Position numbers and translations under genes: made by a program. Under the pieces are notes generated by a model. The model was not told where the DNA came from. It did not search any database and saw only the letters and a list, made by a program, of their open reading frames with translations. A stretch of DNA of 64,000 nucleotides, from NCBI GenBank assembly GCA_905478225.1, contig CAJQHR010000006.1, positions 1 to 64,000 of the forward strand. The letters are read 5' to 3'. Shown one piece after another: positions 14,692 to 33,714 of the stretch. The stretch comes from an uncultured Crocinitomix sp. (lineage in GTDB: Bacteria > Bacteroidota > Bacteroidia > Flavobacteriales_D > Crocinitomicaceae). Every line of letters begins with the position of its first letter. Positions within the stretch are counted from its first letter, which is position 1.

Positions 14692-14796
14692 GAATTTAAA
14701 TGTAAAAATTAGGCTGTAAAGATAGTTAATTCATCCCGCTTTATTGATTAGAATTTTTTTTAAACGGATTCCCTATAAAAAAACAAGCAAAACATT

Positions 14797-14804: not shown

Positions 14805-14825
14805 CGCTAGCAAAAATTAAATCTA

Positions 14826-16919: not shown

Positions 16920-16944
16920 GTCTTCCTTTTTCTGAGATAGATCC

Positions 16945-16977
16945 ACAAAAAAAAGGAGCCGATAAATCGACTCCTTT
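16945..16977 (-). terminator. Terminator between modC and the convergent T9SS gene
   Basis: A hairpin with outer stem AAAGGAG/CTCCTTT (16952-16958, 16971-16977) and a partly paired interior is preceded by an A run. On the minus strand it provides stem plus U run, so it best serves the gene ending at 17000. Without a plus-strand T run it is weaker for modC. Confidence 0.6.
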
Positions 16978-16999
16978 AAAAATTCTTATTATTTACGGT

Positions 17000-18190: not shown

Positions 18191-18257
18191 ATTTAATAGT
18201 TCTAAGAACCGCTAAATTACAAAAAATAAAAAGAAGGGAAGCGGGGAAGGGCTTTTA

Positions 18258-18785: not shown

Positions 18786-18802
18786 AATAAAACGTTAAAC
18801 AT

Positions 18803-18834
18803 AAAAAAAGGGTCTTGACTTAATCAAGACCCTT
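18803..18834 (-). terminator. Terminator of T9SS paralogue 1
   Basis: An 11-bp perfect stem AAGGGTCTTGA (18808-18818) pairs with 18824-18834 around CTTAA, next to a seven-A run that becomes a U run on the minus strand. It sits 20 bases past the stop at 18854. Confidence 0.9.
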
Positions 18835-18853
18835 CAAAATTATAGAATAAAAA

Positions 18854-20749
18854 CTACTTTTTCACAACTTTAACAGTTGTAGCTGCAGTTTCATTTTTAA
18901 TATTTACGAAGTAAACACCGTCAGCAAAATCTTTCAGGTCAAGTACTTCTTTACCAGTAGCGCTTCCAGCAACCAAGATGTCCCCGTTGATTGCCACTAA
19001 CTCATATTGGAAAGTTCCAGTAAACTCTATGTTAATGAACTCAGTAGTTGGATTTGGATAAACAGCAACGTTATCAGCGGTTAAATCATCAATACCAACT
19101 TGTCCTTTAACAGTGAATGTACGTTCAGACTCACAACCAGCAGTTCCTCTAACAACTACAGTGTAGTCACCAGCAGATAAACCAGTCAAATCTTCATCAT
19201 CATCAAAGTCACCAGTTCCATCAGTATCCCAATCAAACGTATAAGTTGGAGCACCACCAGAAATAGTAATTTCAATTTCACCGTCGTCACCAACCGTTTC
19301 AATAGTAGTTACACCATCAATCACAATCATGTCCACAACCTCTACATCAACAGAAGCCTCATTAGAACATCCGTTTTCGTCAGTTCCCATTACAGTATAA
19401 GTAGTTGTTCCGATAACACCAGGAATATAAGGCTCACCATCAATAACACCATTATCCCACCAGTACATTTCACCTCCGCCACCAGTCAAGGTAACTTCCA
19501 TGTTAATACAAATAGGATCATCAGAAGCAGAAGCAGTAATTGTAGGCAACGCCACAACTTCAACAGTCACTTCATCATCATTTTCACCTAAACAGTAACC
19601 TTCAGTATAAAAACCAACAAGGTCAAACGTATACGTTCCAACACCAGGCATTAAATCAAGATCATCACCATCATTCCAAACGTAAAGGTTCGCATCACCA
19701 GCAGCAGATAAAGTAATTGATTCGTCTTCACAGAAAATCAAATCCCCAGCTCCAGCAAGTACAGTCGGCAATCCAACTACTTCAATTGTAACAGGTCCAT
19801 CAACGGGACAATCACCTTCAGAGTCGCTTATTGGAGTATATGTATAAGTACCGGGAGAGCCTGGGTCAAACGGAACACCATCTTCAATTCCACCAGTCCA
19901 AGTAATTTCACCACCGGTAACAGATTCAGCAGTTAGCGTATATTCATCACCAACACAACCACCCTCGCCGGATGCTGTAACGATTAAATCTTCACAGGGT
20001 TGAGCACCAAATCCAAGTGCTGAACATTGGAATCCCCAAGAACCACTATATGTTTGTGCACCCGTTGTTAAATCAACAATGTATCTGCTTGAATAATGCG
20101 TAATCACCATTGTATTGTCAGTTAAAACGGCCATACCTTGTGTTTCACCGCCAGAACTACCCAATAATGATGATGTCATTCCAACAGGGTCAATAAAGTA
20201 AATTCCACCTCTATCTGCACGAATTAAACGATCATCAAAGGGATCATAGCACATTGATGTTCCCCAAGATCCAGAAGGCGGATCATATACGGTTGTAGCA
20301 GCAGCTGTTGCAGGGTCTACATCAGCAATATCGTGAGGTCCTCCACTCCAGTCAGAACCCATTGCATAGAGTGTTCCATCATCAGTAAAATCAATATCAT
20401 TATAGAGACCTGACCCAACCTGACCAATATCTGTAATGTTACCCGTTAAAACGTCTATCGTTCCAAGACGACGATACCAACTTGTACCACCATTAGATTC
20501 ATATAAAACGTACATCTCTTCTGTAATAGGATCAAGTGTAATTCCGTGAAGTGCTTCAACGGATCCAAAATCAGAAGTCATTGTTACTGTAGATATGACA
20601 GACCAGTCTGTCGTATCAAAAGCCGTCAGGATATTACCTGGGGCGTTGTCTTTTTGGCCGGCATACAAAGGAGTAGAATCCTGCCCAAAAGCGGTATTAA
20701 AACCTACACCAACAAGGAGTAGGAGTAAAAAAGTAGAAATTTTCTTCAT
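18854..20749 (-). CDS. T9SS surface protein, tandem paralogue 1
   Basis: From the ATG at 20749 the protein has 631 residues. It has a signal peptide (MKKISTFLLLLLVGVGFNTAFGQ), an N-terminal region of about 240 residues with beta-propeller-like repeats (EEMYVLYESNGG, DDGTLYAMGSDW, VDLTTGAQTYSGSWG), then five cysteine-containing Ig-like repeats, and a type A sorting domain (VYPNPTTEFINIEF, DFADGVYFVNIKNE). The in-frame extension to 20812 spans the promoter box and is not coding. It is very close to paralogue 3 along its length, whereas paralogue 2 matches only in the C-terminal two thirds. The role is unknown; propeller plus Ig repeats suggests binding or adhesion. Confidence 0.85.
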   Translation of the reverse strand: MKKISTFLLLLLVGVGFNTAFGQDSTPLYAGQKDNAPGNILTAFDTTDWSVISTVTMTSDFGSVEALHGITLDPITEEMYVLYESNGGTSWYRRLGTIDVLTGNITDIGQVGSGLYNDIDFTDDGTLYAMGSDWSGGPHDIADVDPATAAATTVYDPPSGSWGTSMCYDPFDDRLIRADRGGIYFIDPVGMTSSLLGSSGGETQGMAVLTDNTMVITHYSSRYIVDLTTGAQTYSGSWGFQCSALGFGAQPCEDLIVTASGEGGCVGDEYTLTAESVTGGEITWTGGIEDGVPFDPGSPGTYTYTPISDSEGDCPVDGPVTIEVVGLPTVLAGAGDLIFCEDESITLSAAGDANLYVWNDGDDLDLMPGVGTYTFDLVGFYTEGYCLGENDDEVTVEVVALPTITASASDDPICINMEVTLTGGGGEMYWWDNGVIDGEPYIPGVIGTTTYTVMGTDENGCSNEASVDVEVVDMIVIDGVTTIETVGDDGEIEITISGGAPTYTFDWDTDGTGDFDDDEDLTGLSAGDYTVVVRGTAGCESERTFTVKGQVGIDDLTADNVAVYPNPTTEFINIEFTGTFQYELVAINGDILVAGSATGKEVLDLKDFADGVYFVNIKNETAATTVKVVKK

Positions 20750-20771
20750 AATATAAAAGTTGTTTAGCTTA

Positions 20772-20800
20772 CAATTATACAAAAAAAAAACTATAAACAA
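20772..20800 (-). promoter_or_regulatory. Promoter of paralogue 1 with A10 tract in spacer
   Basis: Read on the minus strand: TTG (20798-20800), an 18-base spacer, then TATAATTG (20772-20779), one mismatch from TAnnTTTG. The spacer includes ten consecutive A/T pairs (20781-20790). The leader to the ATG is nearly identical at paralogues 2 and 3, supporting a real promoter. Confidence 0.65.
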
Positions 20801-21022
20801 GGTATAAATCATTGAATCAAACTTGTATAATATTATAGGTCTAATGTTTTTCTCCCTTTTAATTATAGAATATTCGGGTTATATCGAATTAAACTAAGGG
20901 AGGGAGCCTCACCATTAGTGACCGTAAAGTGTTAGTTGTTAATTTTTTGGTGCGGAGGTTAAACTCATTTTTAAAACTGAATAAAAGACGAGGGTATAAT
21001 AAAATAAGGACATAAGCGAACA

Positions 21023-21060
21023 TAAAAAAAGGTCCTGACGTCTTTCGCCAGAACCTTTTT
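21023..21060 (-). terminator. Terminator of T9SS paralogue 2
   Basis: A 15-position stem with two mismatches (AAAAAGGT outer part pairing with ACCTTTTT) around TCTTT, beginning with an A run. It lies about 20 bases past the stop at 21079. Confidence 0.8.
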
Positions 21061-21078
21061 ACTTTTATATAATAAAAA

Positions 21079-22962
21079 TTACTTTTTCACTACTTTGATA
21101 GTAGTTGTAGCAGTTTCATTATTAACATTAATGAAGTATACACCGTCAGCAAAATCTTTCAGGCCAAGTACTTCTTTATCAGTAGCGCTTCCAGCAAAAA
21201 GAATGTCACCGTTAATTGCAACTAACTCATATTGGAAAGTTCCAGTAAATTCAATATTAATGAACTCAGTAGTTGGATTCGGATAAACCGCAACGTTCTC
21301 AGTAGTTAAATCGTCAATACCAACTTGTCCTTTAACCGTGAATGTACGTTCAGACTCACAACCAGCAGTTCCTTTAACAAGTACAGTATAGTCACCAGCA
21401 GATAAACCAGTCAAATCTTCATCATCATCAAAGTCACCCGTTCCATCATTGTCCCAATCAAAAGTATATGCTGGAGCGCCACCAGAAATAGTAATTTCAA
21501 TTTCACCGTCGTCACCAACCGTTTCAATAGTAGTTACACCATCAATCACAATCATGTCCACAACCTCTACATCAACAGAAGCCTCATTAGAACATCCGTT
21601 TTCGTCCGTTCCAATTACAGTATAAGTCGTTGTTCCGATAGTAGCAGGAATATAAGCCTCACCATCAACAACACCATTATCCCACCAGTACATTTCACCT
21701 CCGCCACCAGTTAAGGTAACTTCCATGTTAATACAAATTGGATCATCAGAAGCAGAAGCAGTAATAGTCGGCAATGCCACAACTTCAACAGTTACTTCAT
21801 CTGTGTTTTCACCTAAGCAGAAACCTTCTATATATTCACCAAATAATTCATATGTATACGTTCCAACACCAGGCATTAAATCAAGATCTTCACCATCATT
21901 CCAAACATACACATCAGCATCACCTGCAGCAGATAAAGTAATCGATTCATCTTCACAGAAAACCAAATCCCCAGCTCCAGCAAGTACAGTCGGCAATCCA
22001 ACTACTTCAATTGTAACAGGCCCGTCAACGGGACAATCACCTTCAGAGTCGCTTATTGGAGTATATGTATAAGTACCGGGAGAGCCTGGGTCAAATGGAA
22101 TACCATCTTCAATTCCACCAGTCCAAGTAATTTCACCACCGGTAAGTGATTCAGCAGTTAGCGTATATTCATCACCAAAACAACCACCCTCGCCGGATGC
22201 TGTAATGATCAATTCTTCACAGGGCTGAGCACTAAATGCAAGCGCATGGCAGTTAATACCTAAACCGGTAATATAAGTGACAGATCCAGTCACCGTGTTA
22301 ACATTGTAACGTGTACCATATCGAACATAACTTGCTGTTGTTGCGTTAAGAACAACACCAGCTTGTATGTCATTTTGGTATCCACCAAAAGAAGAAGAAG
22401 TTCCTGCGTCAAGGTTAATTTTCTCTGAAGTTGACTCACTTCCCATACGGATGAACTCATCATTGAAAGGGTCATACATTAGTGTGCTAGACCCCCAAGA
22501 GGCTAGAGGTGGATCAAATGTGAACGTTGGAGAACCAGTTAGTACGTCTAACTCGTAAATTCGGTAGGATCCATCCCAGCTATTTTCCATAGCGTATAGA
22601 TTTCCTTCATCATCAAAGTCCATGTCGGCGAAGTCACCAGCAATGCCAATATCAGAAATAGATCCGGATTCAGTATCAAGCGTACCTAACCTACGGTTAA
22701 AAGGACTTGAATTTTGATATAATACGTACATTATTTCAGTAGTAGGGTCCATTGCTAGTCCATAAACACCATTTACGGATCCCGCATCAGATGTCATAGG
22801 GGTTGTTCCAACGGTAGCCCAAGCACCTCCAGTAGTGTCATACTCGGTCAAGATACTTGAGAATCTTGCGCCCGCATACAAAGGGGTTGGATCCTGCCCA
22901 AAGGCAGTGTTAAAACCTACACTAACTAAGAGTAGGAGTAAAAAAGTAGAAAGTTTTTTCAT
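21079..22962 (-). CDS. T9SS surface protein, tandem paralogue 2
   Basis: From the ATG at 22962 the protein has 627 residues. The signal peptide and the entire Ig-repeat and sorting region (from ITASGEGGCFGDEYTL onward) are nearly identical to paralogues 1 and 3. The N-terminal 240 residues have diverged strongly (for example YVLYQNSSPFNRRLGTLD against YVLYESNGGTSWYRRLGTID) but keep the same repeat spacing, so it is a variant propeller-like head on a conserved stalk. It ends with a T9SS type A domain (VYPNPTTEFINIEF). The start was chosen by alignment with its neighbours. Confidence 0.85.
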   Translation of the reverse strand: MKKLSTFLLLLLVSVGFNTAFGQDPTPLYAGARFSSILTEYDTTGGAWATVGTTPMTSDAGSVNGVYGLAMDPTTEIMYVLYQNSSPFNRRLGTLDTESGSISDIGIAGDFADMDFDDEGNLYAMENSWDGSYRIYELDVLTGSPTFTFDPPLASWGSSTLMYDPFNDEFIRMGSESTSEKINLDAGTSSSFGGYQNDIQAGVVLNATTASYVRYGTRYNVNTVTGSVTYITGLGINCHALAFSAQPCEELIITASGEGGCFGDEYTLTAESLTGGEITWTGGIEDGIPFDPGSPGTYTYTPISDSEGDCPVDGPVTIEVVGLPTVLAGAGDLVFCEDESITLSAAGDADVYVWNDGEDLDLMPGVGTYTYELFGEYIEGFCLGENTDEVTVEVVALPTITASASDDPICINMEVTLTGGGGEMYWWDNGVVDGEAYIPATIGTTTYTVIGTDENGCSNEASVDVEVVDMIVIDGVTTIETVGDDGEIEITISGGAPAYTFDWDNDGTGDFDDDEDLTGLSAGDYTVLVKGTAGCESERTFTVKGQVGIDDLTTENVAVYPNPTTEFINIEFTGTFQYELVAINGDILFAGSATDKEVLGLKDFADGVYFINVNNETATTTIKVVKK

Positions 22963-22984
22963 AATATAAAAGTTGTTTAACCTA

Positions 22985-23016
22985 CAATTATACAAAAAAA
23001 AAACGAAACACCACAA
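22985..23016 (-). promoter_or_regulatory. Promoter of paralogue 2 with A10 tract in spacer
   Basis: Minus strand: TTG (23014-23016; TTTG if extended to 23017), a 21-base spacer containing ten A/T pairs (22994-23003), and TATAATTG (22985-22992). The following 22-base leader matches paralogues 1 and 3. Confidence 0.65.
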
Positions 23017-23146
23017 AATCAGGGCATACTCGTCCTATAATATTAAAGCTGAATTTTTGAAAACGGAAAAGAAAGAAATTAAAGGACTGATTTAATTAAG
23101 TGAGGTAATATCCGTTAAAAGGCTTTAAGGAGAGATTAATGGGTAT

Positions 23147-23183
23147 AAAAAAAGGGTCTTAGCAACTGTTGCTAAGACCCTTT
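23147..23183 (-). terminator. Terminator of T9SS paralogue 3
   Basis: A perfect 15-bp stem (23151-23165 with 23169-23183) around CTG, preceded by further A residues that form the U run on the minus strand. It sits 12 bases past the stop at 23195. Confidence 0.92.
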
Positions 23184-23194
23184 ATATGTATAAA

Positions 23195-25090
23195 TTACTT
23201 TTTCACTACTTTGATAGTAGCTGTAGCAGTTTCATTATTAACATTAATGAAGTATACACCGTCAGCAAAATCTTTCAGGTCAAGTACTTCTTTATCAGTA
23301 GCACTTCCGGCAATTAAGATGTCACCGTTAATAGCCACTAACTCATATTGGAATGTTCCTGCAAACTCAACGTTTACAAATTCCGTAGTTGGATTTGGAT
23401 AAACAGCAACGTTAGCAGCGTTTAGATCTTCAAGACCAACTTGACGCCCAACAATGAGAGTAAGCTCAGCTTCACATCCACCAGCACCAACAACAACAAC
23501 AGAATAAATTCCGGTAGTTAGACCAGTAAGGTCTTGTGTGTCATCAAAATCGCCAGTTCCATCATTGTCCCAATCATAAGTGTAGGTTGGAGCACCACCA
23601 GAAACTTCAATATCGATTTCACCATCATCATCAACAGTTTCAAGAATAATGTCTGCAACCGTGATTTCAATGTTGTCTACAACCTCTACATCAACTGAGG
23701 CCTCATTAGAACATCCGTTTTCATCTGTACCAATTACAGTATAAGTTGTTGTTCCAATTGCTCCTGGAATATAAGGCTCACCATCAACAACACCATTATC
23801 CCACCAGTACATTTCACCTCCGCCACCAGTTAAGGTAACTTCCATGTTAATACAAATTGGATCATCAGAAGCAGAAGCAGTAATAGTCGGCAATGCCACA
23901 ACTTCAACAGTTACTTCATCTGTGTTTTCACCTAAGCAGAAACCTTCAGTAAAATAACCAGTCAGATCAAATGTATACGTTCCAACACCAGGCATTAAAT
24001 CAAGATCTTCACCATCATTCCAAACGTATAAGTTCGCATCACCAGCAGCAGATAAAGTAATCGATTCATCTTCACAGAAAACCAAATCCCCAGCTCCAGC
24101 AAGTACGGTGGGCAATCCAACTACTTCAATTGTAACAGGCCCGTCAACGGGACAATCACCTTCAGAGTCGCTTGTTGGAGTATATGTATAAGTACCGGGA
24201 GAGCCTGGGTCAAACGGAACACCATCTTCAATTCCACCAGTCCAAGTAATTTCACCACCGGTAAGTGATTCAGCAGTTAGCGTATATTCATCACCAACAC
24301 AACCACCCTCAGCGGATGCTGTAACGATCAAACCTTCACAAGGTTGAACACCAAAACCAAGCGCATTACAACTGAATCCCCAAGAACCACTATATGTTTG
24401 TGCACCCGTTGTTAAATCAACAATGTATCTGCTTGAATGATGCGAAATCACCATTGTATTGTCAGTTAAAACCGCCATACCTAGTGTTTCACCACCAGAA
24501 CTAGTCAAATATGATGAAGTCATTCCCACAGGGTCAATAAAGTAAATCCCAGATCTATCTGCACGAATGAAACGATCATCAAAAGGATCATAACACATTG
24601 ATGTTCCCCAAGAACCAGAAGGCGGATCATATACGGTAGTTGCTGCAGCAGTAACTAAGTTTACTTCAGCAAAATCGTGAGGCCCTCCACTCCAGTTATC
24701 ACCCATTGCATATAGCGTTCCATCATCAGCAAAATCAAGATCATTATAGCGACCACTCCCAATCTGACCAATATCTGAAATGGCGCCTGTTTCAACGTCT
24801 ATCGTTCCCATTCGACGGTACCATGATGCGCCACTAGATTCATATACAACATACATCTCTTCTGTAATTGGGTGCAGCGCAATTCCATGAAGTCCAATAA
24901 CTGATCCGTAATCTGAAGTCATAGTTACTGTAGATATTACAGACCAATCTGTTGTATCAAAAGCCGTTAGGATATTACCACCGCCTCCGGCTCTATGTCC
25001 TGCGTAGAGGGGAGTAGGATCTTGCCCAAAAGCGGTATTAAAACCTACGCCAACTAGGAGTAGGAGTAAAAAAGTAGAAAGTTTTTTCAT
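23195..25090 (-). CDS. T9SS surface protein, tandem paralogue 3
   Basis: A 631-residue protein starting MKKLSTFLLLLLVGVGFNTAFGQ, with a propeller-like N-terminal region close to paralogue 1 (NLYVWNDGEDL and YRRMGTIDVETG are shared features), five Ig-like repeats and a type A sorting domain (VYPNPTTEFVNVEF). The last Ig repeat differs from the other two copies (EITVADIILETVDDDGEIDIEV, core ILETVDDDGEIDI), as does the stretch GRQVGLEDLNAAN. The copies therefore form a mosaic rather than a simple series. Each copy has its own promoter and terminator and so is an independent transcription unit. Confidence 0.85.
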   Translation of the reverse strand: MKKLSTFLLLLLVGVGFNTAFGQDPTPLYAGHRAGGGGNILTAFDTTDWSVISTVTMTSDYGSVIGLHGIALHPITEEMYVVYESSGASWYRRMGTIDVETGAISDIGQIGSGRYNDLDFADDGTLYAMGDNWSGGPHDFAEVNLVTAAATTVYDPPSGSWGTSMCYDPFDDRFIRADRSGIYFIDPVGMTSSYLTSSGGETLGMAVLTDNTMVISHHSSRYIVDLTTGAQTYSGSWGFSCNALGFGVQPCEGLIVTASAEGGCVGDEYTLTAESLTGGEITWTGGIEDGVPFDPGSPGTYTYTPTSDSEGDCPVDGPVTIEVVGLPTVLAGAGDLVFCEDESITLSAAGDANLYVWNDGEDLDLMPGVGTYTFDLTGYFTEGFCLGENTDEVTVEVVALPTITASASDDPICINMEVTLTGGGGEMYWWDNGVVDGEPYIPGAIGTTTYTVIGTDENGCSNEASVDVEVVDNIEITVADIILETVDDDGEIDIEVSGGAPTYTYDWDNDGTGDFDDTQDLTGLTTGIYSVVVVGAGGCEAELTLIVGRQVGLEDLNAANVAVYPNPTTEFVNVEFAGTFQYELVAINGDILIAGSATDKEVLDLKDFADGVYFINVNNETATATIKVVKK

Positions 25091-25112
25091 AATATAAAAG
25101 TTGTTTAGCCAA

Positions 25113-25142
25113 CAATAATACGAAAAAAAAGCGAATTATCAA
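25113..25142 (-). promoter_or_regulatory. Promoter of paralogue 3 with A8 tract in spacer
   Basis: Minus strand: TTG (25140-25142; TTTG to 25143), a 19-base spacer with eight A/T pairs (25123-25130), and TATTATTG (25113-25120). It is the same design as the promoters of paralogues 1 and 2 with a shorter homopolymer. Confidence 0.65.
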
Positions 25143-25431
25143 ACTATTGAATCTATCACGACAGTTATTATTAACTGCTAATTGTTTGAAAACCAATATG
25201 GAAGAAATAATTTAAATAATATAATGCCTTCTAAAGCAAAAGTCGGATAAAAAAATTAAATATAAAAGTCTTTTTTTACATCTTAAATTGTCACATTATT
25301 AATGGTGAAGTCGAACTCCATTTTGGTGGAGGTTTCAAGGAAAAAATCTCTTTTACAGCAACTAAGTCTAATAAAAAAAACACCTCTTTAGTCACAAAGG
25401 GGGTTAATAAAAGTCTATTCGAAAAGCGTGT
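25143..25431. other. Intergenic region between paralogue 3 and the MoSto-like operon
   Basis: With the promoter just described this leaves 340 bases without a gene. It contains a likely terminator (25373-25404) and AT-rich sequence. A short hairpin-like stretch near 25310-25330 (ACTCCA and TGGAG) has no obvious role. I see no reading frame worth calling. Confidence 0.4.
25373..25404 (-). terminator. Probable terminator of the MoSto-like operon
   Basis: CCTCTTT (25383-25389) can pair with AAAGGGG (25397-25403, one G-T pair), and an eight-A run at 25373-25380 gives a U run on the minus strand. It lies 30 bases past the last gene of the operon. Confidence 0.55.
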
Positions 25432-26223
25432 TTAGGCGTAAATTACCGTTCCTGTTTCTTCGCCATTAATAGCCTTGGTTAATTCTCCTTTTGTCATTCC
25501 ATCAATAATCACCAATTTTTTTACAAAACGTGAGCGTTTCATATAATCTAAAATGACACGTTCTACAATTAAATCCCCTAAGTCCATTTCAATTAGTTCA
25601 TCTACATGAATTTTTGGAATAAATTTGGCGTCAGGCTTCTTTTTAGGATCATCTGTATATAAACCTTTTTCGTCCTTTATAAAATAAACCGTGTCCGCGC
25701 CTAATGCTTCTGCGGTAAAAAAGGCACCACAATCGGTTCTATGCATTGGAATTGATCCAAAATCAGGAATATCTTCCCAAAAACTATAAGGAGGCATACC
25801 GGGCAAAATAGGAATACAACCTAGTCTTAGGAACTGAGGCAGTTTTTCAAATTCAAGGTGATCTAGAAATATCCCGCCGTGCTTCGCTAGCACCATTTGT
25901 AATAGTCGTGCATTTTGAACCGTAATGGCACCGCCCATTTCTGCTAAAACCCCGACAGGCATGTTTAAATCGATACCTACTTGGTAACTATGTCTTGCTC
26001 GCGTTCCACCACCTGATGTAAGAATAATATCGTGTTCATCTTTTAAGGTGACTATTTCGTCCAAAATTGGAAAAACAGCCTTTCGCCCTCGGTCAGTAAT
26101 ACTTTGACCACCCATCTTCATCACTTTTACGTTCGGTAAAATTCGAAGATCATGTTTATAATTTAACACCGCTTCTTCGAGCGTGTCTTGCATCATTGTG
26201 CCTAAATCGTCCATTTTACTCAT
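25432..26223 (-). CDS. mosB: Molybdenum storage protein (MoSto)-like subunit, beta-type
   Basis: A 263-residue member of the amino-acid-kinase/UMP-kinase fold. Its pattern follows the beta subunit of the Azotobacter molybdenum storage protein: an N-terminal helix and DLRILPNVKVMKMGGQS, then RGRKAVFPILDEI, GGGTRARH (71-78), QNARLLQMVLAKHG, PGMPPYSFWE (141-150), HRTDCGAFF (161-169) and KDEKGLYTDDPKK. MoSto is a hetero-hexameric cage that packs polyoxomolybdate or tungstate clusters in an ATP-dependent way. Its start shares one base with the stop of the alpha-type gene. The fold and subfamily are well supported; the stored ion is inferred from the family. It could be a MoSto relative with another cargo. 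Confidence 0.75.
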   Translation of the reverse strand: MSKMDDLGTMMQDTLEEAVLNYKHDLRILPNVKVMKMGGQSITDRGRKAVFPILDEIVTLKDEHDIILTSGGGTRARHSYQVGIDLNMPVGVLAEMGGAITVQNARLLQMVLAKHGGIFLDHLEFEKLPQFLRLGCIPILPGMPPYSFWEDIPDFGSIPMHRTDCGAFFTAEALGADTVYFIKDEKGLYTDDPKKKPDAKFIPKIHVDELIEMDLGDLIVERVILDYMKRSRFVKKLVIIDGMTKGELTKAINGEETGTVIYA

Positions 26224-27056
26224 TATGCTTCTTTTTTATAGATGATTGTTCCTCCGTTTTCACCATTAATGGCTTTAACGATATTCCCAGGCTTTAAGCC
26301 GTTTACAATGTGAATCTCTTTTAAATGTCTTGCTTTAGCCAACATCTCAATTACTAATCTATCAATGATAAGCTCAGGAAAATCTCCCGCTAATATTTCT
26401 TGTGCAGAAATACGTTCGATATGTTTTGCATCTGAATGTTTTTTAGGGTCCTTATCATATAAACCATCCTGATCTTTTACAAAAATCATAGAGCGTGAGC
26501 CCATCCCTTCTGCTGTCATATAGGCGCCAAAGTCTGCACCACTTTCTGGCAATACACCTGTCATTGGTGGTTTTTCCCAATAGTGATGGGGTGGGTTTAG
26601 TGTTAATATTGGAATCATATTATCGACTAAATAATGCGGGAGATCGGCATAATCGTCTTTTGGGACACGGACAGCACCGTGCTTGGCCATAAGCGAATAC
26701 AACATATTTGCATTTTGCTCTTCATTGGCGCCAACAATCATTGCTAATCCACCAACAGGTATTCCAAAATCTAATCCAATGGCCATGGCATGTTTAACGC
26801 GCACACCACCTGTCACCCCAACAGCAAATTTGAATTTACCAATTAAGGTTAACAGTTCTTCAATAACGGGAAACACGGCAGACTTTCCCCTATCAATAAT
26901 ACTACTTCCACCAAGGCTAATTACATCTAAATAGGGTAGGATGGCTATTTCATCAATCACTTCGGATGATGAAATAACTTTTCGGTCTACTAGTGATTCA
27001 CGCATAAAGCGTGAATCGAGATGTGTTCGACCTTTATCATATGTATCGTCACTCAT
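26223..27056 (-). CDS. mosA: Molybdenum storage protein (MoSto)-like subunit, alpha-type
   Basis: A 277-residue paralogue of the downstream gene with the same amino-acid-kinase fold: ISLGGSSIIDRGKSAVFPVIEE, VTGGVRVKHA (81-90), IGLDFGIPVGGLA, EEQNANMLYSLMAKHG, NPPHHYWE (154-161), SGADFGAYM (172-180), KDQDGLYDKDPKK (194-206) and VNGLKPGNIVKAI. The PPHHYWE segment aligns with the histidine-rich PPYHHH segment of the Azotobacter alpha subunit, which lines the cluster chamber. The beta-type partner has PPYSFWE there, as expected for two specialised subunits. It overlaps the upstream membrane-protein gene by eight bases and the beta gene by one. The pairing strongly suggests a heteromeric cage. Confidence 0.75.
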   Translation of the reverse strand: MSDDTYDKGRTHLDSRFMRESLVDRKVISSSEVIDEIAILPYLDVISLGGSSIIDRGKSAVFPVIEELLTLIGKFKFAVGVTGGVRVKHAMAIGLDFGIPVGGLAMIVGANEEQNANMLYSLMAKHGAVRVPKDDYADLPHYLVDNMIPILTLNPPHHYWEKPPMTGVLPESGADFGAYMTAEGMGSRSMIFVKDQDGLYDKDPKKHSDAKHIERISAQEILAGDFPELIIDRLVIEMLAKARHLKEIHIVNGLKPGNIVKAINGENGGTIIYKKEA

Positions 27057-28242
27057 TATTGTTAGTTTTTAAAATTGCGCGTGAAATAAACCCTGAGGCG
27101 ATTCCAAACGAGATTTGCGAAATTATGTAGGGCAAAAATAGAATAAAAAATGCACTCGAGATGCCCAAGATATACGCTAATAGTATTTCAATACCTATTC
27201 GTGTTATTCCTGCGACGGCTCCAATAGACATCAGATAAATAAGATTTGTTTTTTTAAAAGGAAGTTTGAGCATTAAATCAATGACGCCCCCAACAATTAT
27301 AAATTCTAAAATTCCAAGAGGGCCATATTTACCAAACCCCATGGAAAAATGTAGAATTCCGGATATGGAGCCAATTTGAATTCCCGCAAAGGGTTTTTTA
27401 GATTTAAGAATGGCATTAATAAAAAGAGGGAAAACCAGAATGCTTTTATGTCCGGGGGCAACGGGAAGTCCAGGGGCAATCTTCACCATTCTTATTAGTG
27501 TAATTGCCAGTGCGGATGAGGCAATAGTAGCGTTTGGATTATTCTTAAATTTTTCTGTCGCAAAGTTGAGTCGCCCAATCAGTTTTTTTGGAATACCGCC
27601 CACTTTTCCTTTGAAGAGCACATCTGTTGCTTTATCTTCTTCAGGATCACTGCCTCCTTTATTGCGGTTGCCTTTTCCTCCACCTTTACCGTTGCCACCA
27701 CCACCGCCGCCATTTCCTTTTCCTCCTGCGTTTTTCTTTTTCTCGCTGCTAACAATGTCTATAATTTGATCAATTATTTCTGCAGATGAAGCACTAAGCC
27801 CTAAGCCCGTTAGGCCTTGAACAAAATCATTGCTTTTCATGGTAAATCGCACCACTTGAGTAATCATTAGCATGGCAATTAATTTGCAGCCCATTACGCC
27901 TCCTAAATAGAGACCTTCATAACTAAGGGCTAATACCCAGCCCCATTTTTTAATTTCAAGAAGAGGGATGTCATTTTCACCGGTTAGGGAGTGGACCAAA
28001 AAGATCAATAGGACAAACCACTTTACCTTTAAGAGAAAGCGTAAACTTTTTTTAGGATTTTTAATTGTAAAATAAAGTCCAAGATGGACGGCAATTATTC
28101 CGAGAAGAATAAATAAATCATTCAGAAAAAAGACACCGACTCCTGCAAGAAAAATATACAGTATTTTCAATGTGTTTTTCAAATCTAATGAGGTGTTAAG
28201 TTGCAATCGTTTTTCACATCCATTTTGAATGAATAGGAACAT
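27049..28242 (-). CDS. Multi-pass membrane protein, ECF-transporter-like, coupled to MoSto genes
   Basis: A 397-residue integral membrane protein in two halves. Residues 24-140 form four or five helices resembling a CbiQ/EcfT-type T component (SLRFLLKVKWFVLLIFLVHSL). Residues 240-392 form five or six helices like an ECF S component, with PGLPVAPGHKS and HFSMGFGKYGPLG. Between them lies a charged loop with a run of glycine, lysine and asparagine (173-197). I see no ATPase domain, and no EcfA gene is adjacent. The last eight bases overlap the MoSto alpha-type start, so it belongs to that operon and could move the stored oxyanion or another metal. The ATG at 28242 lies directly beside a TATTTTTG box, so a TTG start at about residue 13, 21 or 25 is possible. 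Confidence 0.55.
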   Translation of the reverse strand: MFLFIQNGCEKRLQLNTSLDLKNTLKILYIFLAGVGVFFLNDLFILLGIIAVHLGLYFTIKNPKKSLRFLLKVKWFVLLIFLVHSLTGENDIPLLEIKKWGWVLALSYEGLYLGGVMGCKLIAMLMITQVVRFTMKSNDFVQGLTGLGLSASSAEIIDQIIDIVSSEKKKNAGGKGNGGGGGGNGKGGGKGNRNKGGSDPEEDKATDVLFKGKVGGIPKKLIGRLNFATEKFKNNPNATIASSALAITLIRMVKIAPGLPVAPGHKSILVFPLFINAILKSKKPFAGIQIGSISGILHFSMGFGKYGPLGILEFIIVGGVIDLMLKLPFKKTNLIYLMSIGAVAGITRIGIEILLAYILGISSAFFILFLPYIISQISFGIASGFISRAILKTNNNE

Positions 28243-28243
28243 G

Positions 28244-28251
28244 CAAAAATA
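28244..28251 (-). promoter_or_regulatory. Candidate -7 box before the ECF-like gene
   Basis: TATTTTTG on the minus strand matches TAnnTTTG exactly but ends one base before the ATG at 28242. If it is used, the transcript starts inside the annotated N-terminus and translation begins at a later TTG. No suitable TTG box was found upstream, so support is weak. Confidence 0.3.
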
Positions 28252-28345
28252 AGGCTTTCTAATTTATTCGCGATTCTTTTGTCCTCAAAATCATGATTGA
28301 ATTCGCTTATGTGGAGTTGCGGGATCAATTTTCAGGAGATAATAA

Positions 28346-29626
28346 CTACTTAATTTTTTGCTCAACTTCAAATAAAGTTGGTTTCCAGGTAAACATTAAA
28401 AATAAAAACAGCGGTTTTTGCAAATAATCACCTGTTTTTAAAGTGGACATGCTAGCAGTAGGAATCATAGTTGAAATGCCTAAATCAAAATCCATATCCG
28501 CATTCATTTCATATTTAAGTTTTAAATCCGTTTCAAAACCAAGGTAGGGGTTTGCAATATTATTATCTATATCCAATAAATCGCTTTGTGAGTAAAACAA
28601 GTGGCTTTCAAATTTCAACCTCAATTTTTTACTGATTTTATAGTCAAAAAACAAATAAGGATTAATTAAGCCAGCACCATTTACGTCAGCAGGGAAAGAG
28701 GTAAAGTAGTTGAGGTGTCCATTAAATTTAAAGGCAACACCATATAAAGTAGAAAAAGAACGATTAACGTCGCCTGAGACCGTATTGTCTTCACCGCTCA
28801 AATATTCCATTCCGGCACGAATTTCCAATCGTTTAATTTTAAAAGAAACTTCGGGCTGTAAATAAAATGCCGAAACCCTCTGTCCCGATTGTAATTGTCC
28901 GTATTGGTAATAAGCGGCAATAGTCGCTTTAAAGGCCTTTTTTTTATAGGTGAGTCTACCACCAGATGTTCCACGCACATAAACAGTTGATGTACTTACT
29001 TGGCTTTGATAGCCATCAAAACTATTGAGCACGTTCAGCGTAAACCTATCAGACAACGCGTATTTTAAATAATGATTGGCTAAATACTTATAATGGTTAA
29101 GCGGATAAAATGTGCCAAATGAAAACGCTCCAACTTGATTGTAAAAAAGCATTAAGTCAGTTGACAATTTAGAGGCAGAATAATTTAAACGTAAACCATC
29201 ATGCGCCCTAGAAAACTGACTCCAATTTGCTTTTGAAAAAAGGCGCCCATTATCTAATTCAACTGCTTGTCGACCCGCTTTTAAACTCCAAGCATTGTTC
29301 TTTCCTAAATTAAAGGTGGCGTAAGCTTCAAACAAACTCAAACCGTTTGTGGCAGGAGAACTTCCATTTTGACCCCAAACGCGAACGTCTTGAATTGAAG
29401 CATGAAAATGGGCCTTTTTTGTTTTAAAATCTAGCAATAAACGACTACGGGTGCTTACAAAAAAGGCAGCATCAGTTGCTGTTGGGGGTAAACTTCTATA
29501 ACCATCCCTAAACTCAAAACGAGGGCGAAACTCTAAGCCCAATTTAAATGCACGAGTTGAGTCGGACTGTGCATGTCCGAAAAAACATACAGTCAAGAAT
29601 GTGATATATAAACCAATTTTTAACAA
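28346..29626 (-). CDS. Outer-membrane porin, alginate-export (AlgE-like) family
   Basis: A 426-residue beta-barrel with signal peptide (GLYITFLTVCFFGHAQ) and strand-rich sequence with alternating aromatic residues. FRPRFEFRDGYR, SRSRLLLDF-type and FEAYATFNLG segments (here TRSRLLLDFKTKKAH and LFEAYATFNLGKN) fit the alginate_exp family. Members of this family are widespread general porins, so the name does not imply alginate. The start is TTG, as no ATG precedes the signal peptide. It lies 103 bases upstream of the ECF-like gene on the same strand and may feed the same oxyanion route across the outer membrane; that role is inference. Confidence 0.8.
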   Translation of the reverse strand: MLKIGLYITFLTVCFFGHAQSDSTRAFKLGLEFRPRFEFRDGYRSLPPTATDAAFFVSTRSRLLLDFKTKKAHFHASIQDVRVWGQNGSSPATNGLSLFEAYATFNLGKNNAWSLKAGRQAVELDNGRLFSKANWSQFSRAHDGLRLNYSASKLSTDLMLFYNQVGAFSFGTFYPLNHYKYLANHYLKYALSDRFTLNVLNSFDGYQSQVSTSTVYVRGTSGGRLTYKKKAFKATIAAYYQYGQLQSGQRVSAFYLQPEVSFKIKRLEIRAGMEYLSGEDNTVSGDVNRSFSTLYGVAFKFNGHLNYFTSFPADVNGAGLINPYLFFDYKISKKLRLKFESHLFYSQSDLLDIDNNIANPYLGFETDLKLKYEMNADMDFDLGISTMIPTASMSTLKTGDYLQKPLFLFLMFTWKPTLFEVEQKIK

Positions 29627-29646
29627 GCGACTAGCTTTAAAAGCAG

Positions 29647-29654
29647 CAAAGGTA
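29647..29654 (-). promoter_or_regulatory. -7 box of the porin gene
   Basis: TACCTTTG on the minus strand matches TAnnTTTG exactly and lies 20 bases upstream of the TTG start. No clear TTG element is seen 19-23 bases further up. Confidence 0.45.
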
Positions 29655-29666
29655 AAACAAAAATTA

Positions 29667-29674
29667 TACTTTTG
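29667..29674 (+). promoter_or_regulatory. -7 box of tadA
   Basis: TACTTTTG matches TAnnTTTG exactly and ends eight bases before the tadA ATG, implying a very short or absent leader. It is back to back with the porin box, only 12 bases away. Confidence 0.45.
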
Positions 29675-29682
29675 TTTTTACT

Positions 29683-30126
29683 ATGATTGATGTGTACACA
29701 GATGAGTATTTTATGAAAGAGGCATTAAAAGAAGCCGAGTTAGCTTTTGCCGAAAATGAAGTACCTGTTGGTGCGGTCATAGTTTTGAACAAAACAATAA
29801 TAGCTCGCGCGCACAATTTAACCGAGCGTTTAACAGATGTTACGGCACATGCCGAAATGCAAGCGATAACGGCGGCAAGTGAGTATATTGGGGCAAAATA
29901 TCTAAAAAAATGCACCCTTTTTGTAACGCTTGAACCTTGTGCCATGTGTGCCGGAGCATTGGCTTGGACCCAAATTGAAAAAGTCGTTTTTGGAGCATTT
30001 GATGATCGAAAAAAACATGTAGATGAAAACATCTATCACCCAAAAACAAAGATTGAGAGGGGATTGCTACAAACCGAAGCCGCGCAATTAATGAAGGATT
30101 TTTTTCTTAAAAAGCGGAGCTTGTAA
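29683..30126 (+). CDS. tadA: tRNA-specific adenosine deaminase
   Basis: A 147-residue zinc deaminase that converts the wobble adenosine of tRNA-Arg(ACG) to inosine. Visible signatures are EVPVGAVIV, the catalytic HAE (THAEMQAI in AHAEMQAI) and the zinc-binding PCxxC in TLEPCAMCAGA, followed by GAFDDRKKH. The length is normal. It is divergent from the porin gene with 56 bases between starts and ends close to the convergent tspO. Confidence 0.96.
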   Translation: MIDVYTDEYFMKEALKEAELAFAENEVPVGAVIVLNKTIIARAHNLTERLTDVTAHAEMQAITAASEYIGAKYLKKCTLFVTLEPCAMCAGALAWTQIEKVVFGAFDDRKKHVDENIYHPKTKIERGLLQTEAAQLMKDFFLKKRSL

Positions 30127-30184
30127 CAACAGTTACAGAGCCCTCTTTTTCAAGTTGTGTATAATTGTGCTGTGTTTAGCCACT

Positions 30185-30652
30185 TTAGTTGTTAACATAG
30201 ATATATGCGTTTAAAGATGTGGCAATAATTAACCAAATAAAATAGGGGAGTACCAGTAATGACTTCCACTTTAATTGTTCTCCACCAAAGGCAGACGTAA
30301 AGAAGAAACAGCCCACTAGCAGGGTTAACGCTACAATTATGATAAGCGCAATAAGAACAGCCTGGTATTTAAAAAATGCAGGGTTCCAAGCAAAGTTCAA
30401 AATCCATTGTAATACGAATAATCCTATGAGCAAGGATTTGTTTGTGCTTGTTGCGTAGGCATATGCCATATAAATGGCAAAACAAATCATAATTGTTGTC
30501 CATACTGCTCCAAAAACCCACCCCGGAGGAGTCCAAGGTGCGGCATTTAAATTTGTAAACCAATTTGATTGTGTTCCTGCACCAGTAAAAAGACCGCCGA
30601 GTGCTAATCCAACAAAGTTAATGACAAGAAATAGAATGATACGCAAGGCCAT
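30185..30652 (-). CDS. tspO: TspO/MBR family tryptophan-rich sensory protein
   Basis: A 155-residue membrane protein with five predicted helices and the tryptophan-rich family core: LGGLFTG, NWFTNLNAAPWTPPGWVFGAVW and LQWILNFAWNPAFF. TspO proteins bind porphyrins and related ligands and modulate stress or pigment responses. I chose the ATG at 30652 (MALRIILFLVINFVG); the upstream extension to 30685 adds 11 residues before the first helix. Confidence 0.93.
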   Translation of the reverse strand: MALRIILFLVINFVGLALGGLFTGAGTQSNWFTNLNAAPWTPPGWVFGAVWTTIMICFAIYMAYAYATSTNKSLLIGLFVLQWILNFAWNPAFFKYQAVLIALIIIVALTLLVGCFFFTSAFGGEQLKWKSLLVLPYFIWLIIATSLNAYIYVNN

Positions 30653-30802
30653 AATGTGGTTTAAGTTAAAACAAATGTTTGACAAAATGGGTCAAGATTA
30701 AATTTCAATTCACCTCAGGTGGACCAAAATTGAACTTTAAAGTGCCTGCACGACTCCCATCAAGAAAATTATTAGCGGTTGATTAAGAAGAGGTATTGTT
30801 GA

Positions 30803-31108
30803 TTAAAGATCGGGGGAAAAATAGTTGTAGGCAATTCCTTCTTTAACCTTAACCGTTACTTTTTTATAGAGGGCTGCAAAATAACCGAGTGGATTATTGT
30901 CTTTTTCGGTGGAAGCAATTAATTCGAATGACAGATAATGTTGGCTTTTAGAATTGACTTCAAATGTATCAATGAAATCGAGGCCATCCAAATGAATCAT
31001 TTTCATAGAACCAGTTCCGCCAATTTGCAACTTCTTAATGAATGAATATTCGGAGCCAGCTGATTCCTGAAGTTTAGTTTCTGTTGTATGTTGAATTTGA
31101 TCATTCAC
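30803..31108 (-). CDS. Small conserved-looking protein of unknown function
   Basis: A 101-residue protein starting at GTG; the nearest in-frame stop lies eight codons upstream. It reads as a compact beta-rich domain (YSFIKKLQIGGTGSMKMIHLDGLDFIDTF, partly) without signal peptide or helices. No family is recognised. The 155 bases between it and the TonB receptor are relatively GC-rich and hold no gene I can support. Confidence 0.45.
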   Translation of the reverse strand: MNDQIQHTTETKLQESAGSEYSFIKKLQIGGTGSMKMIHLDGLDFIDTFEVNSKSQHYLSFELIASTEKDNNPLGYFAALYKKVTVKVKEGIAYNYFSPDL

Positions 31109-31263
31109 GTCAACGTTTGAGTAAAATTAGGCATTTTTAGATGCCGCCGCAAGGTGTGTTGGCAATTCCTGCGTGGAACCCCAAGATACTGGACAAGCCA
31201 GTGGGTGCTTTTTGTGCTGGACAAGGGAGGGCGTGAATTTTACTTACTATGTTAGGGCTAGTT

Positions 31264-33714
31264 TTAAAACCTAATATTTAAAAAGAAGTTAGAGGTAAAA
31301 GGCACGCCTAATACTGAATTGATTGTTCCATCTGGAAAGTTAGCATATTGATACAAACGGAAATTCTTAGCATTCAAAACATTAAGAATTGAGACGCCAG
31401 ATTCAAACTTCACTTTTTTAATGTTGAAGTGATACTGAAAGGATGCATCCAATCGGCTATAAGAAATTACTTTTTCGAAGTTATCAAAAGAATAATTAAA
31501 TCCAGACCCCCATACATTTGTTATTGAAAAAAAGAATGGTCTGAAATTAAAAGAAGCAGCTACTTTTAACTCATGACGTTGATCGTGTAAAGCCGGTAAG
31601 TATTCTCCTTGTGTTACTACTTCAAATTGCTCATCTACTTTACTCAAAGTGTAAGAAGTCCACAATTGATGATTTTTAATTCGAATTTTCATAAACACAT
31701 CTCCTCCAAAAGATCTAGAATTACCAACATCATCAAAGAAAGAAGAGTCCTTTTTATATCTTCTACTCAAATTTTTATTCGAGATGTAAAAGCCTTCAAT
31801 GCCTAAATCAAATTGCTCCGAGAGGTATGAAATTCCGAGAACACTATGCATAGATGACAGAGATGGATAGCTTTTATCATCTAATACTTCCCAAAAGTTG
31901 TTTGAATTACCTAATTCATCTATGGTCATAATTTGCCCTACGTATTGTTTATAGATGCCCCAAGCAGAGTTGAAATTAACTCTTTCTGTTAATCTGAGCT
32001 GACCGTCAAAACGAGGTTGTATGTAAAGTTGATTACTTTGAATTAGGTAGTCAGATTTCACCCCCAAGGTAGATGTAAACTTTTTTCCTATCTGAAATTT
32101 GTCTTGAACGGATAAATAAACATAATCTAAAAATGAACTACTCTCATTTTTACTAAATACGTCAACCTCTGGATTGAATTGTGTTTGATTCCTTTGATGC
32201 CCTAATGACAAGCGAATACTTTGGTTTCTTTTGAGGGGAAAGATATGGTCTACTTTTGAGGCAATAGACAATACATTATTAGTCCAAAAATTGCTGTTTA
32301 GGAAGGGATTATTACCAAGACTATCGTTTAAAAACAATAAATTACTTATGCTATTGTCATAGAATGATTGCGACATCTGTACTTTAGATATTCCGCCTTT
32401 TCTCCATTGATGATGGTAGGCTAGACTATTTCCGAATTGTATAGAAGAAATATCAGCCCTGTAATATTTTTTTGAGAGTTTACTTGCATTATAAAATTCT
32501 GCATAATTGTCTTTGCTATAGATGCTACTAAAGGTAAGTAATCCTCCATTTTTAAAGCTGGTAGTATACTTCAGGGTTAAATCATGGTAATCATAATTTG
32601 ACAAAATTGATTCATCAAATTGACTCTTGGTTAGTGCATTATTGAGTAGGTTTAAATACGAGACGCGACCTGAAATTTGAAGGTTAGAGCTTTTGTGGAA
32701 AAGAGGAATGTTGAGGTAGGCATTAGCGACCTGCGTGCTTAAATTCAATTGAGCTTCAATACTATCTCTATTTCCTTCTTTTCCCTCGATAAGCATAATT
32801 CCGCCGACTCTGTCACCAAACTCAACATTGTACCCCGCTTTGAATACATTGATTTGTTTAACCATTGTTGGGTTCACTCTGCCAATATTATCATTTAAAC
32901 CTGAACTGTTGAACAAGGTAATACCGTCAAAAAGAACTTGATTTTGTCCTGGGTAACTTCCCCACATACTATATTCAGAAAGTGATTCTCCTGAAGCCAG
33001 AACTCCAGGATAAAGTCGGACATAATTGAATAAGAGATTGTTTCCATCTCCTGGCACTGTGGTTGTTGCCATATCTGTAAAGATCATTTGACCGACCATG
33101 CCACCGAGGCTATGATGTTCAATATGGTTTACTTCAGAAGGGTTCACAACAATGGTTTCAAGCTCAATTGTTCCAGGTTTCAATTGTATTTGAATGGTAT
33201 TTGATGTGCTCAGAATAGTATCTAATTTATAATAGCCTAATTGGCTAAAGAAACCATTCGTTTCTCTTTTTCTTAATTTAATACTGAATTCACCTTTTTC
33301 GTTGGAAATTGTTCGAGTGTCTCCTAATAAAATTCTGGTGAAAGGAAGGGGCTCTAGTGTTCCAGATTCAACTACTTTTCCTTGATACAAGTACCATTGA
33401 ATTTCTGGTTTTGTTGGTGATTTTGGTTCAAGCTGTTTTGAACTGAAAACATAAACTTTCCCCAATAGTTTAACTTCTAAGTCACATTTTGTTGCCAAGA
33501 ATTCCAGAGCTTTTGAAATGTTCTGAAACTCTTGCATTACAGTAATCGGGCAGGTGGAAGATATTTTTGAACTGATAGAAACCTGCACCTGATATCTGAC
33601 GTTGAGGTCAATCAGGACTTCATTAAGACTCTCTTCAGTATAATCCAATTCAATCGTTTGTGCATTGGCTTTTAATGCGACTATTAAAAACGAAATGACA
33701 ATTAAATATTTAAT
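31264..33714 (-). CDS. TonB-dependent outer-membrane receptor with N-terminal STN domain
   Basis: A receptor of about 816 residues. An STN-type domain (LDYTEESLNEVLIDLNVRY, split at NEVL; about 25-90) interacts with FecR. A carboxypeptidase-like repeat (about 110-180) leads to a plug and a 22-strand barrel ending in SNFFLNIRF. The signal peptide KYLIVISFLIVALKANAQ is encoded only if translation begins at ATT (33714) or one of the ATC codons just before it. No ATG, GTG or TTG exists in frame between the FecR stop and the TTG at 33648, and starting there would lose the signal. Its location behind fecI/fecR makes it both transporter and signal receptor. The substrate is unknown. Confidence 0.85.
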   Translation of the reverse strand: MKYLIVISFLIVALKANAQTIELDYTEESLNEVLIDLNVRYQVQVSISSKISSTCPITVMQEFQNISKALEFLATKCDLEVKLLGKVYVFSSKQLEPKSPTKPEIQWYLYQGKVVESGTLEPLPFTRILLGDTRTISNEKGEFSIKLRKRETNGFFSQLGYYKLDTILSTSNTIQIQLKPGTIELETIVVNPSEVNHIEHHSLGGMVGQMIFTDMATTTVPGDGNNLLFNYVRLYPGVLASGESLSEYSMWGSYPGQNQVLFDGITLFNSSGLNDNIGRVNPTMVKQINVFKAGYNVEFGDRVGGIMLIEGKEGNRDSIEAQLNLSTQVANAYLNIPLFHKSSNLQISGRVSYLNLLNNALTKSQFDESILSNYDYHDLTLKYTTSFKNGGLLTFSSIYSKDNYAEFYNASKLSKKYYRADISSIQFGNSLAYHHQWRKGGISKVQMSQSFYDNSISNLLFLNDSLGNNPFLNSNFWTNNVLSIASKVDHIFPLKRNQSIRLSLGHQRNQTQFNPEVDVFSKNESSSFLDYVYLSVQDKFQIGKKFTSTLGVKSDYLIQSNQLYIQPRFDGQLRLTERVNFNSAWGIYKQYVGQIMTIDELGNSNNFWEVLDDKSYPSLSSMHSVLGISYLSEQFDLGIEGFYISNKNLSRRYKKDSSFFDDVGNSRSFGGDVFMKIRIKNHQLWTSYTLSKVDEQFEVVTQGEYLPALHDQRHELKVAASFNFRPFFFSITNVWGSGFNYSFDNFEKVISYSRLDASFQYHFNIKKVKFESGVSILNVLNAKNFRLYQYANFPDGTINSVLGVPFTSNFFLNIRF

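Follow-up and report, generated by a model that had tools for sequence, protein, structure and literature searches.

A membrane protein with T-like and S-like halves is encoded with a MoSto-like storage pair in a conserved three-gene unit

Introduction

A stretch of 64,000 nucleotides from an uncultured Crocinitomix sp. (contig CAJQHR010000006.1 of assembly GCA_905478225.1, positions 1 to 64,000 of the forward strand), referred to here as the window, carries on its minus strand two adjacent genes, A and B, for proteins related to the molybdenum storage protein (MoSto) of Azotobacter vinelandii, directly preceded by a gene for a membrane protein that we call TS. The conserved unit consists of these three genes, TS, A and B, and their association is established here across several phyla. 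The reading that we favour, with a probability of roughly 0.46, is that TS is a motor-less carrier derived from the energy-coupling factor (ECF) transporters, which would supply molybdate or tungstate to an ATP-using cage of MoSto type, beside the importer ModABC. We infer the loss of ATPase docking, transport itself, its direction and substrate, and contact between TS and the cage.

Most studies of MoSto concern the A. vinelandii protein. A 2019 paper describes MoSto as being without known homologues (PMC6448029). The family compiled here spans nine phyla by record label and two main gene arrangements, one of which is usually tied to TS, and proteins now filed as uridine kinase gain a better name from the MoSto assignment. 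Both the MoSto and the ECF parts are already known; what is new is their pairing through a fused T–S protein, and a search of the open-access PMC literature, with subscription journals outside its range, gave no paper on a link between MoSto and ECF proteins or TS among the matches listed. A transporter-like protein apparently without an ATP-driven motor suggests an undescribed way of handling molybdenum or tungsten. Should TS feed, control or empty the cage, the unit would show how a cytoplasmic metal store connects to the membrane and would offer a natural test of what S components can do without an ATPase.

The storage pair and its relation to MoSto

The genes of the unit, in window coordinates, are the following.
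25432-26223, minus strand: MoSto-like subunit B (P0001), 263 residues, with the motif PPYSFWE; nearest to A. vinelandii MoSto beta (phmmer against PDB, AA_kinase PF00696, tree)
26223-27056, minus strand: MoSto-like subunit A (P0002), 277 residues, with the motif PPHHYWE; carries the His aligned with alpha-His156 (phmmer against PDB, residue table, tree)
27049-28242, minus strand: TS membrane protein, 397 residues as the longest open reading frame (ORF); AlphaFold2 model with a predicted local distance difference test (pLDDT) of 83.2 and a predicted template modelling score (pTM) of 0.80

A sequence-only reading of this stretch had proposed these three genes together with a porin-like gene further upstream, and all four ORFs lie on the minus strand at the places it claimed, with an overlap of 1 base between the A and B genes, one of 8 bases between the TS and A genes, and 103 bases between the porin gene and the longest TS ORF. 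Comparison with relatives suggests that the true start of TS is the TTG at 28182, in which case the gap to the porin gene would be 163 bases.

Sequence comparison identifies the storage pair as homologues of A. vinelandii MoSto, the homology being far beyond chance. The best PDB match of each protein is a subunit of that protein (1.9e-62 for B, 2.5e-55 for A), against 6.7e-11 and 9.6e-9 respectively for the best uridine monophosphate (UMP) kinase, and both fall far under the cut-offs of the NCBIfam UMP kinase models. The MoSto-like, kinase-fold nature of the pair, as first read from the sequence, is therefore upheld; the accompanying claim of separate alpha and beta patterns holds only in part, as both proteins score nearer to MoSto beta than to alpha in the phmmer search.

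That the two proteins are ordinary nucleotide kinases in a coincidental neighbourhood is hardly credible, although they belong to the same amino acid kinase family as UMP kinase and some homologues are named uridine kinase in public records: the MoSto matches are stronger by more than 40 orders of magnitude, the gene order is conserved across phyla, and the genome carries a PyrH-like gene of its own, whose product stands outside the storage-protein family on a very long branch (length 10) in our tree. The tree holds 64 rows, from 32 of the 80 loci described below, the window pair, A. vinelandii alpha and beta and the host's own PyrH; the last is the sole outgroup and the bootstrap is not settled. 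The expectation that the pair would not fall among the UMP kinases agrees with its place outside the one PyrH taken as outgroup, and a UMP kinase identity is rejected on the strengths of the PDB matches together with the tree. Besides the PyrH-like gene, the other contigs of the genome hold one more amino acid kinase gene, whose frame of 444 residues marks it by its length as an aspartokinase. On an Azospirillum plasmid (L113, 5968-7627) the MoSto genes are annotated as uridine kinase and as molybdenum storage protein subunit alpha.

Within the tree, P0001 groups with the B subunits of L012, L017, L018 and L019 (support 100/100), and P0002 lies within a clade of 19 A subunits from loci of A-B order (support 100/96), which includes the TS-less loci L061, L068 and L077 and excludes both A. 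vinelandii alpha and the A subunits of B-A order. The A. vinelandii alpha subunit sits on a long branch that meets PyrH, and its position is unsure.

To compare the residues of the cluster site, the A and B subunits of 48 of the 49 TS loci (48 of each) were aligned with those of A. vinelandii MoSto. According to an excerpt of PMC4504029, His156 and Glu129 of MoSto bind the Mo8 cluster; that text names no subunit for His156, and we assigned it to alpha by the fit of the numbering. P0002 and 47 of the 48 A subunits have His at the His156 position. At the Glu129 position P0002 has Pro and no A subunit (0/48) has Glu, which we take as a detail of one protein and not as MoSto-defining. The position of alpha-His140, presumably a ligand in A. 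vinelandii MoSto, is Tyr in 39 of the 48 A subunits. The Lys at alpha-45 occurs in all 48 B subunits and in both A. vinelandii chains but in none of the 48 A subunits, so that A may be the catalytically weaker partner.

These substitutions at the Glu129 and alpha-His140 positions speak for a unit that handles some other oxyanion or metal complex, with a storage-like pair that is not a molybdenum or tungsten store. We consider this quite improbable, given the near-universal retention of His at the Mo8-binding position and the ModABC or Wtp-like genes found near the pair at the places checked by profile, namely the window, L036 and L105 (see below). The pair most probably assembles into a MoSto-type cage with ATP-driven packing of molybdate or tungstate into oxide clusters.

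Distribution and gene order of the unit

A scan of genome contigs gave at least 587 pattern matches; tblastn confirmed 348 of these, from which the 80 most similar to P0001 were taken. These loci, mostly from metagenome-assembled genomes, are labelled in their records as Bacteroidota, Myxococcota, Planctomycetota, Nitrospirota, Pseudomonadota, cyanobacteria, Bacillota, Acidobacteriota, Rhodothermota (nine phyla in all) and unplaced bacteria; TS occurs under the first six of these labels. TS lies upstream of the storage genes on the same strand in 49 of the 80 loci, a proportion that is no family-wide rate since the 80 lean to the window's subfamily. One cultured bacterium with the unit is Alcanivorax sp. 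1008 (L052). The gene order that the sequence-only reading expected to find in relatives is thus conserved, and the system it had considered within Bacteroidota extends, as a three-gene unit, beyond that phylum.

The spacing is tight: the gap from TS to the next ORF is 71 bp or less in all 49 loci, exactly -4 in 15 and -8 in 5 (larger negative gaps are a product of the mechanical choice of the longest ORF), and the gene directly after TS is in all 49 a storage gene and not an ATPase gene. If the count is limited to loci whose sequence extends 700 bp or more beyond the first storage ORF on its upstream side, TS is present in 41 of 68. By order the 68 comprise 40 A-B loci with TS, 7 A-B loci without it, 13 TS-less loci of B-A or B-B order, 7 TS-less loci with a single B, and L055, labelled B-A by script, which has both storage genes and TS. 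When L055 and 28 of the 31 TS-less loci (29 in all) were searched in six frames with a profile, TS was found in L055 only, and the EcfT-like gene of L066 gave a weak match. Among the genomes of the 31 TS-less loci, one (G680) has a full TS elsewhere; the TS-profile matches in G676, G692 and G697 cover the T half only (model positions 4-140) and were set aside as ordinary T components.

The association was also seen in 235 genomes from the phylum of G420 (Myxococcota by label), of which 10 have TS, 10 have MoSto and 8 have both (Fisher p 9.7e-12, a value that overstates independence because TS relatives share ancestry). In the 8 shared genomes the TS and MoSto genes lie on one contig about 2 kb or less apart; 5 of these were already known from the MoSto loci and G483, G547 and G642 are new. 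TS without MoSto was scored in two genomes: in G652 the TS gene stands at the end of a contig, and in G487 the match is a weak one, to a separate S component next to EcfA- and EcfT-like ORFs, with no MoSto gene at that locus at 1e-30. The MoSto-only genomes are G481 and G597, and as at most 7 candidates were scored per genome TS is perhaps undercounted. Pairwise distances of TS correlate with those of A and of B (r 0.91 and 0.92, permutation p 0.0002, 38 loci), as expected of genes inherited together.

Among 345 Bacteroidota genomes searched with P0001 at 1e-25 only the window's own genome matched, so the family is rare in that phylum. TS was found in 3 of 59 genomes (the window's own and relatives), all within the genus, 6 other members of which have no TS; the other two TS genomes are not independent of L012 and L014, both recorded as Crocinitomix. 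A search of plasmids for TS gave no match. A gene fusing TS and A in L104 is not claimed, the two matches there having different open-frame lengths (434 and 1049 residues).

Other genes were noted beside storage genes in TS-less arrangements. At L061 (7988-9031) and L068 (3842-4777), both A-B without TS, a gene for a CXXCH protein precedes A; this is possibly a c-type haem protein by its motif, and that of L061 has weak Pfam matches. A gene resembling S-adenosylmethionine (SAM) methyltransferases precedes B at L067 (2243-3052, by Pfam), L064, L071, L084 and other B-A or B-B loci, and in several B-A loci B is preceded by a methyltransferase gene and A is followed by a ModB-ModC fusion.

Architecture of the TS protein

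TS can be divided into three parts.
27784-28182, minus strand: T-component-like transmembrane half, residues 21-153 (CbiQ TIGR02454 7.9e-6, below cut-off; EcfT alignment)
27643-27750, minus strand: glycine-rich linker, residues 165-200, at the place of the first EcfT coupling motif in alignments
27052-27555, minus strand: half with the S-component fold, residues 230-397 (VIA-align 5edl Z 12.2)

The two halves are recognised in AlphaFold2 models of two members, the window TS and the TS of Labilithrix locus L024 (pLDDT 83.7, pTM 0.82). When the window model is compared with known structures, ECF S components take ranks 1-11 (for 5edl, root mean square deviation (rmsd) 3.9 over 159 aligned residues), and for the L024 model they take 9 of the top 10 (4huq_S, Z 12.3, rmsd 2.9, 161 aligned); a Z of about 12 is possible among helical bundles from a common arrangement alone. 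The T half of the window model matches EcfT 5d3m_D over chain residues 19-148 of 259 (Z 9.7, rmsd 3.6, 126 aligned) and that of L024 matches 7nnu_D (Z 10.2, rmsd 5.0). This match is less distinct than that of the S half, because unrelated structures start at Z 8.9 with an ammonia monooxygenase, aligned to the S half. Foldseek by itself, run against PDB, had no hit with E <= 0.001. The CbiQ profile of Pfam matches 21 of 38 TS members at E 0.01 or better (best 2.7e-10), the window TS at 0.0047 being below the cut-off. Since the two models agree and the CbiQ profile matches, we accept that TS is modelled as a T-component-like half, a linker and an S-component-fold half in one chain, and the resemblance of its halves to T and S components, first suggested from the sequence, is borne out by the models of both members.

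Residues invariant in the S half of all 38 aligned TS proteins are P257, P260, G264, K266, P272, G291, G295, G302, G307, G318, D322, R348 and G380, and H265 is conserved in 33 of them. An anion would fit the Lys and Arg among the invariant residues. At L108 (4072-6070) a separate S-like protein with a TS-like PGH motif is encoded beside EcfA- and EcfT-like ORFs, and may represent the ancestral kind of the TS S half. The excerpted text of PMC11109136 compares the S-component fold with MreD; the window itself has an MreD-like gene, by eye, at 62724-63239.

ATPase coupling and the apparent absence of an ECF motor

A T component anchors the ATPases through X-Arg-X motifs at the ends of its two coupling helices; these parts are likely reduced or lost in TS, as judged from profile and alignment. 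In single scans of the window TS and two others, the match to the CbiQ model stopped at about position 137 of its 200, whereas the EcfT-like protein of L066 matches positions 1-200, itself below cut-off. In an alignment of ten TS and two EcfT-like proteins the linker takes the place of the first anchor and the second TS helix ends after an RAE-like stretch, so that both coupling ends are missing, in a region that aligns poorly. The linker carries a net positive charge in 34 of 38 TS proteins and is at least 40% glycine in 27.

In the window's own genome the best ECF ATPase candidate reaches 154.8 bits against a cut-off of 330 (E 3.1e-45; one model with a strict cut-off), and no CbiQ protein is over its cut-off. 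Genomes were searched for 38 of the 49 TS loci; none of them passes the ECF ATPase cut-off and 2 have a match at E 1e-60, compared with 2 and 8 respectively of 14 control genomes; these counts come from a single ECF ATPase model whose cut-off only those 2 controls pass, with at most 48 candidates scored per genome and a 1e-60 line of our own choosing. The evidence does not support an intact ECF transporter, which the likeness to ECF components in the sequence-only reading might imply: no ECF ATPase can be recognised, and the ends needed for coupling seem incomplete. At L066 (2446-8266) a single MoSto B gene is followed by genes for two EcfA-like ATPases, one of which was tested and is over cut-off, and an EcfT-like gene; upstream lies a gene for a DUF364 protein (putative heavy-metal chelation).

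Molybdenum and tungsten context

A set of molybdate transport genes, missed by the sequence-only reading, lies on the opposite strand of the window.
14826-15575, plus strand: ModA, molybdate-binding protein (TIGR01256, 152.8 bits, cut-off 62.5)
15575-16243, plus strand: ModB, molybdate permease (TIGR02141, 204.4 bits, cut-off 182.6)
16236-16919, plus strand: ModC-like ATP-binding cassette (ABC) ATPase, short (227 residues against the 353 positions of TIGR02142, its best family at 191.1 bits, below 285.05)

As modABC is present at 14826-16919, conventional molybdate uptake in the host is likely. The host is also predicted to make molybdenum cofactor, having MoaA, and with a formate dehydrogenase alpha subunit over cut-off (TIGR01591, 798 bits) it would need molybdenum or tungsten. 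The modABC genes face the storage genes across about 8.5 kb of genes for repeat-bearing proteins; four similar ones lie in 17000-25090, that at 23195-25090 having a type IX secretion system (T9SS) sorting domain and an SprB repeat, and the other three look alike by eye.

Similar neighbours occur elsewhere. In L013-L019 (7/7; all Bacteroidota by title except L018, Proteobacteria) a ModA- or ModB-like ORF, by phmmer label, stands convergent near the storage pair, and in L036 ModA and ModB genes over cut-off directly follow B. In L105 the genes run A, B, Wtp-like permease, Wtp-like ATPase, TS, overlapping or separated by short gaps; the families that fit the two Wtp-like genes best, WtpB and WtpC, are below cut-off. 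TS as a replacement for ModABC is rejected, because ModA is over cut-off in 34 of 38 TS genomes; together with the modABC genes of the window, this places TS in addition to ModABC.

Possible roles of TS

In the reading that we favour, TS would carry molybdate or tungstate (or a chemically related species) through the inner membrane and on to the cage, whose filling would act as a sink for the metal that TS brings, next to the ordinary ModABC importer. A precedent is given by the solitary S components BioY and BtuM, which, in the excerpts of PMC6072759 and PMC11109136, transport without an ECF module; according to PMC6072759, E. coli has no ECF module. A stronger form, in which TS and the pair make up an ECF-derived uptake system without an ABC motor and the ATP used by a docked cage drives the trapping, seems rather doubtful; if true, ATP use by a storage cage would be a new way to energise metal uptake.

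Several points weigh against the motor-less carrier. Apart from the lean of the 80 loci, the shared ancestry behind the Fisher test and the reliance on one ECF ATPase model, all given above, 7 A-B loci with ample upstream sequence have no TS there, the window TS has no Pfam or NCBIfam match over cut-off, and nothing identifies the substrate, the Lys and Arg being only compatible with an oxyanion. As ModA is over cut-off in most TS genomes, TS is not needed as the sole molybdate importer. A docking site may also remain: an [RK]G pair at residues 211-212 is kept in 29 of 38 TS proteins, 13 of the 38 have [AS]RG there, resembling the X-Arg-X anchor (the window reads FKG), and the alignment of the L024 model with EcfT (8bmr_C) extends to chain residue 228.

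The last three features would be accounted for if TS were an active transporter of ECF type working with a borrowed ATPase, either an unrecognised one or one of non-ECF kind such as ModC or WtpC, and at L105 an ABC ATPase gene does overlap TS by one base. The anchor-like triplet in 13 of 38 slightly raises this possibility and slightly lowers that of the motor-less carrier. We still regard active transport as unlikely, in view of a CbiQ match that ends near position 137 of 200, the coupling ends missing from the alignment, the 36 of 38 genomes with no ECF ATPase match at E 1e-60 (and none over cut-off), and the storage gene, not an ATPase gene, that directly follows TS in 49 loci.

Because ModA is usually present and import thereby usually covered, a regulator, tether or release valve, which senses periplasmic metal or docks the cage and imports nothing, fits nearly as well as a carrier. 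The S-component fold also serves receptors, according to the excerpt of PMC11109136, and the net-positive linker could bind the cage or polyanions. Against such a role, a T transmembrane half and a full S fold exceed the needs of a tether and the window TS has no signalling domain in Pfam or NCBIfam; we think it less probable than a carrier.

Porin and other elements of the window

Upstream of TS lies the remaining gene of the four.
28346-29626, minus strand: porin-like gene (Alginate_exp), 426 residues, TTG start (PF13372, 1.5e-13)

A homologue of this porin occurs in only 2 of the 80 MoSto loci, both Bacteroidota, a count from one single-sequence query with several contigs cut upstream. The porin was accordingly rejected as a fourth member of the unit, and with it falls the proposed route from outer membrane to storage cage in so far as it included the porin. 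For RNA regulators, neither window positions 13000-33000 nor 8 related loci gave an Rfam match at gathering. Counts of promoter-like sites (16, with 15.3 in shuffled sequence) and of terminator-like sites (7, with 4.2, standard deviation 1.8) were not used as evidence. At 36170-37147 there is, by eye, a transposase-like ORF with integrase-type sequence.

Comparison with known systems

With A. vinelandii MoSto the storage pair shares the kinase-fold family, the tandem arrangement, the His156 position in subunit A and about 40% identity to the beta subunit. It differs in the order A-B behind TS, in the separate clade formed by the A subunits of the sampled A-B loci and, relative to A. vinelandii alpha, in having neither Glu129 nor the alpha-45 Lys in any of the 48 A subunits. 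The ModABC and Wtp importers share with TS a presumed cargo, and Mod- or Wtp-like genes adjoin the pair in some loci; they belong to another membrane family, have their own ATPase and occur alongside TS. With ECF transporters, TS shares both transmembrane folds by model comparison, whereas in TS the T and S parts are joined in one chain, the coupling ends are missing in the alignment and 36 of 38 genomes have no recognisable EcfA. BioY and BtuM, as far as the excerpted sources describe them, likewise show the S-component fold where no ECF module is found, while TS differs from them in its attached T-like half and linker and in being tied to a storage pair.

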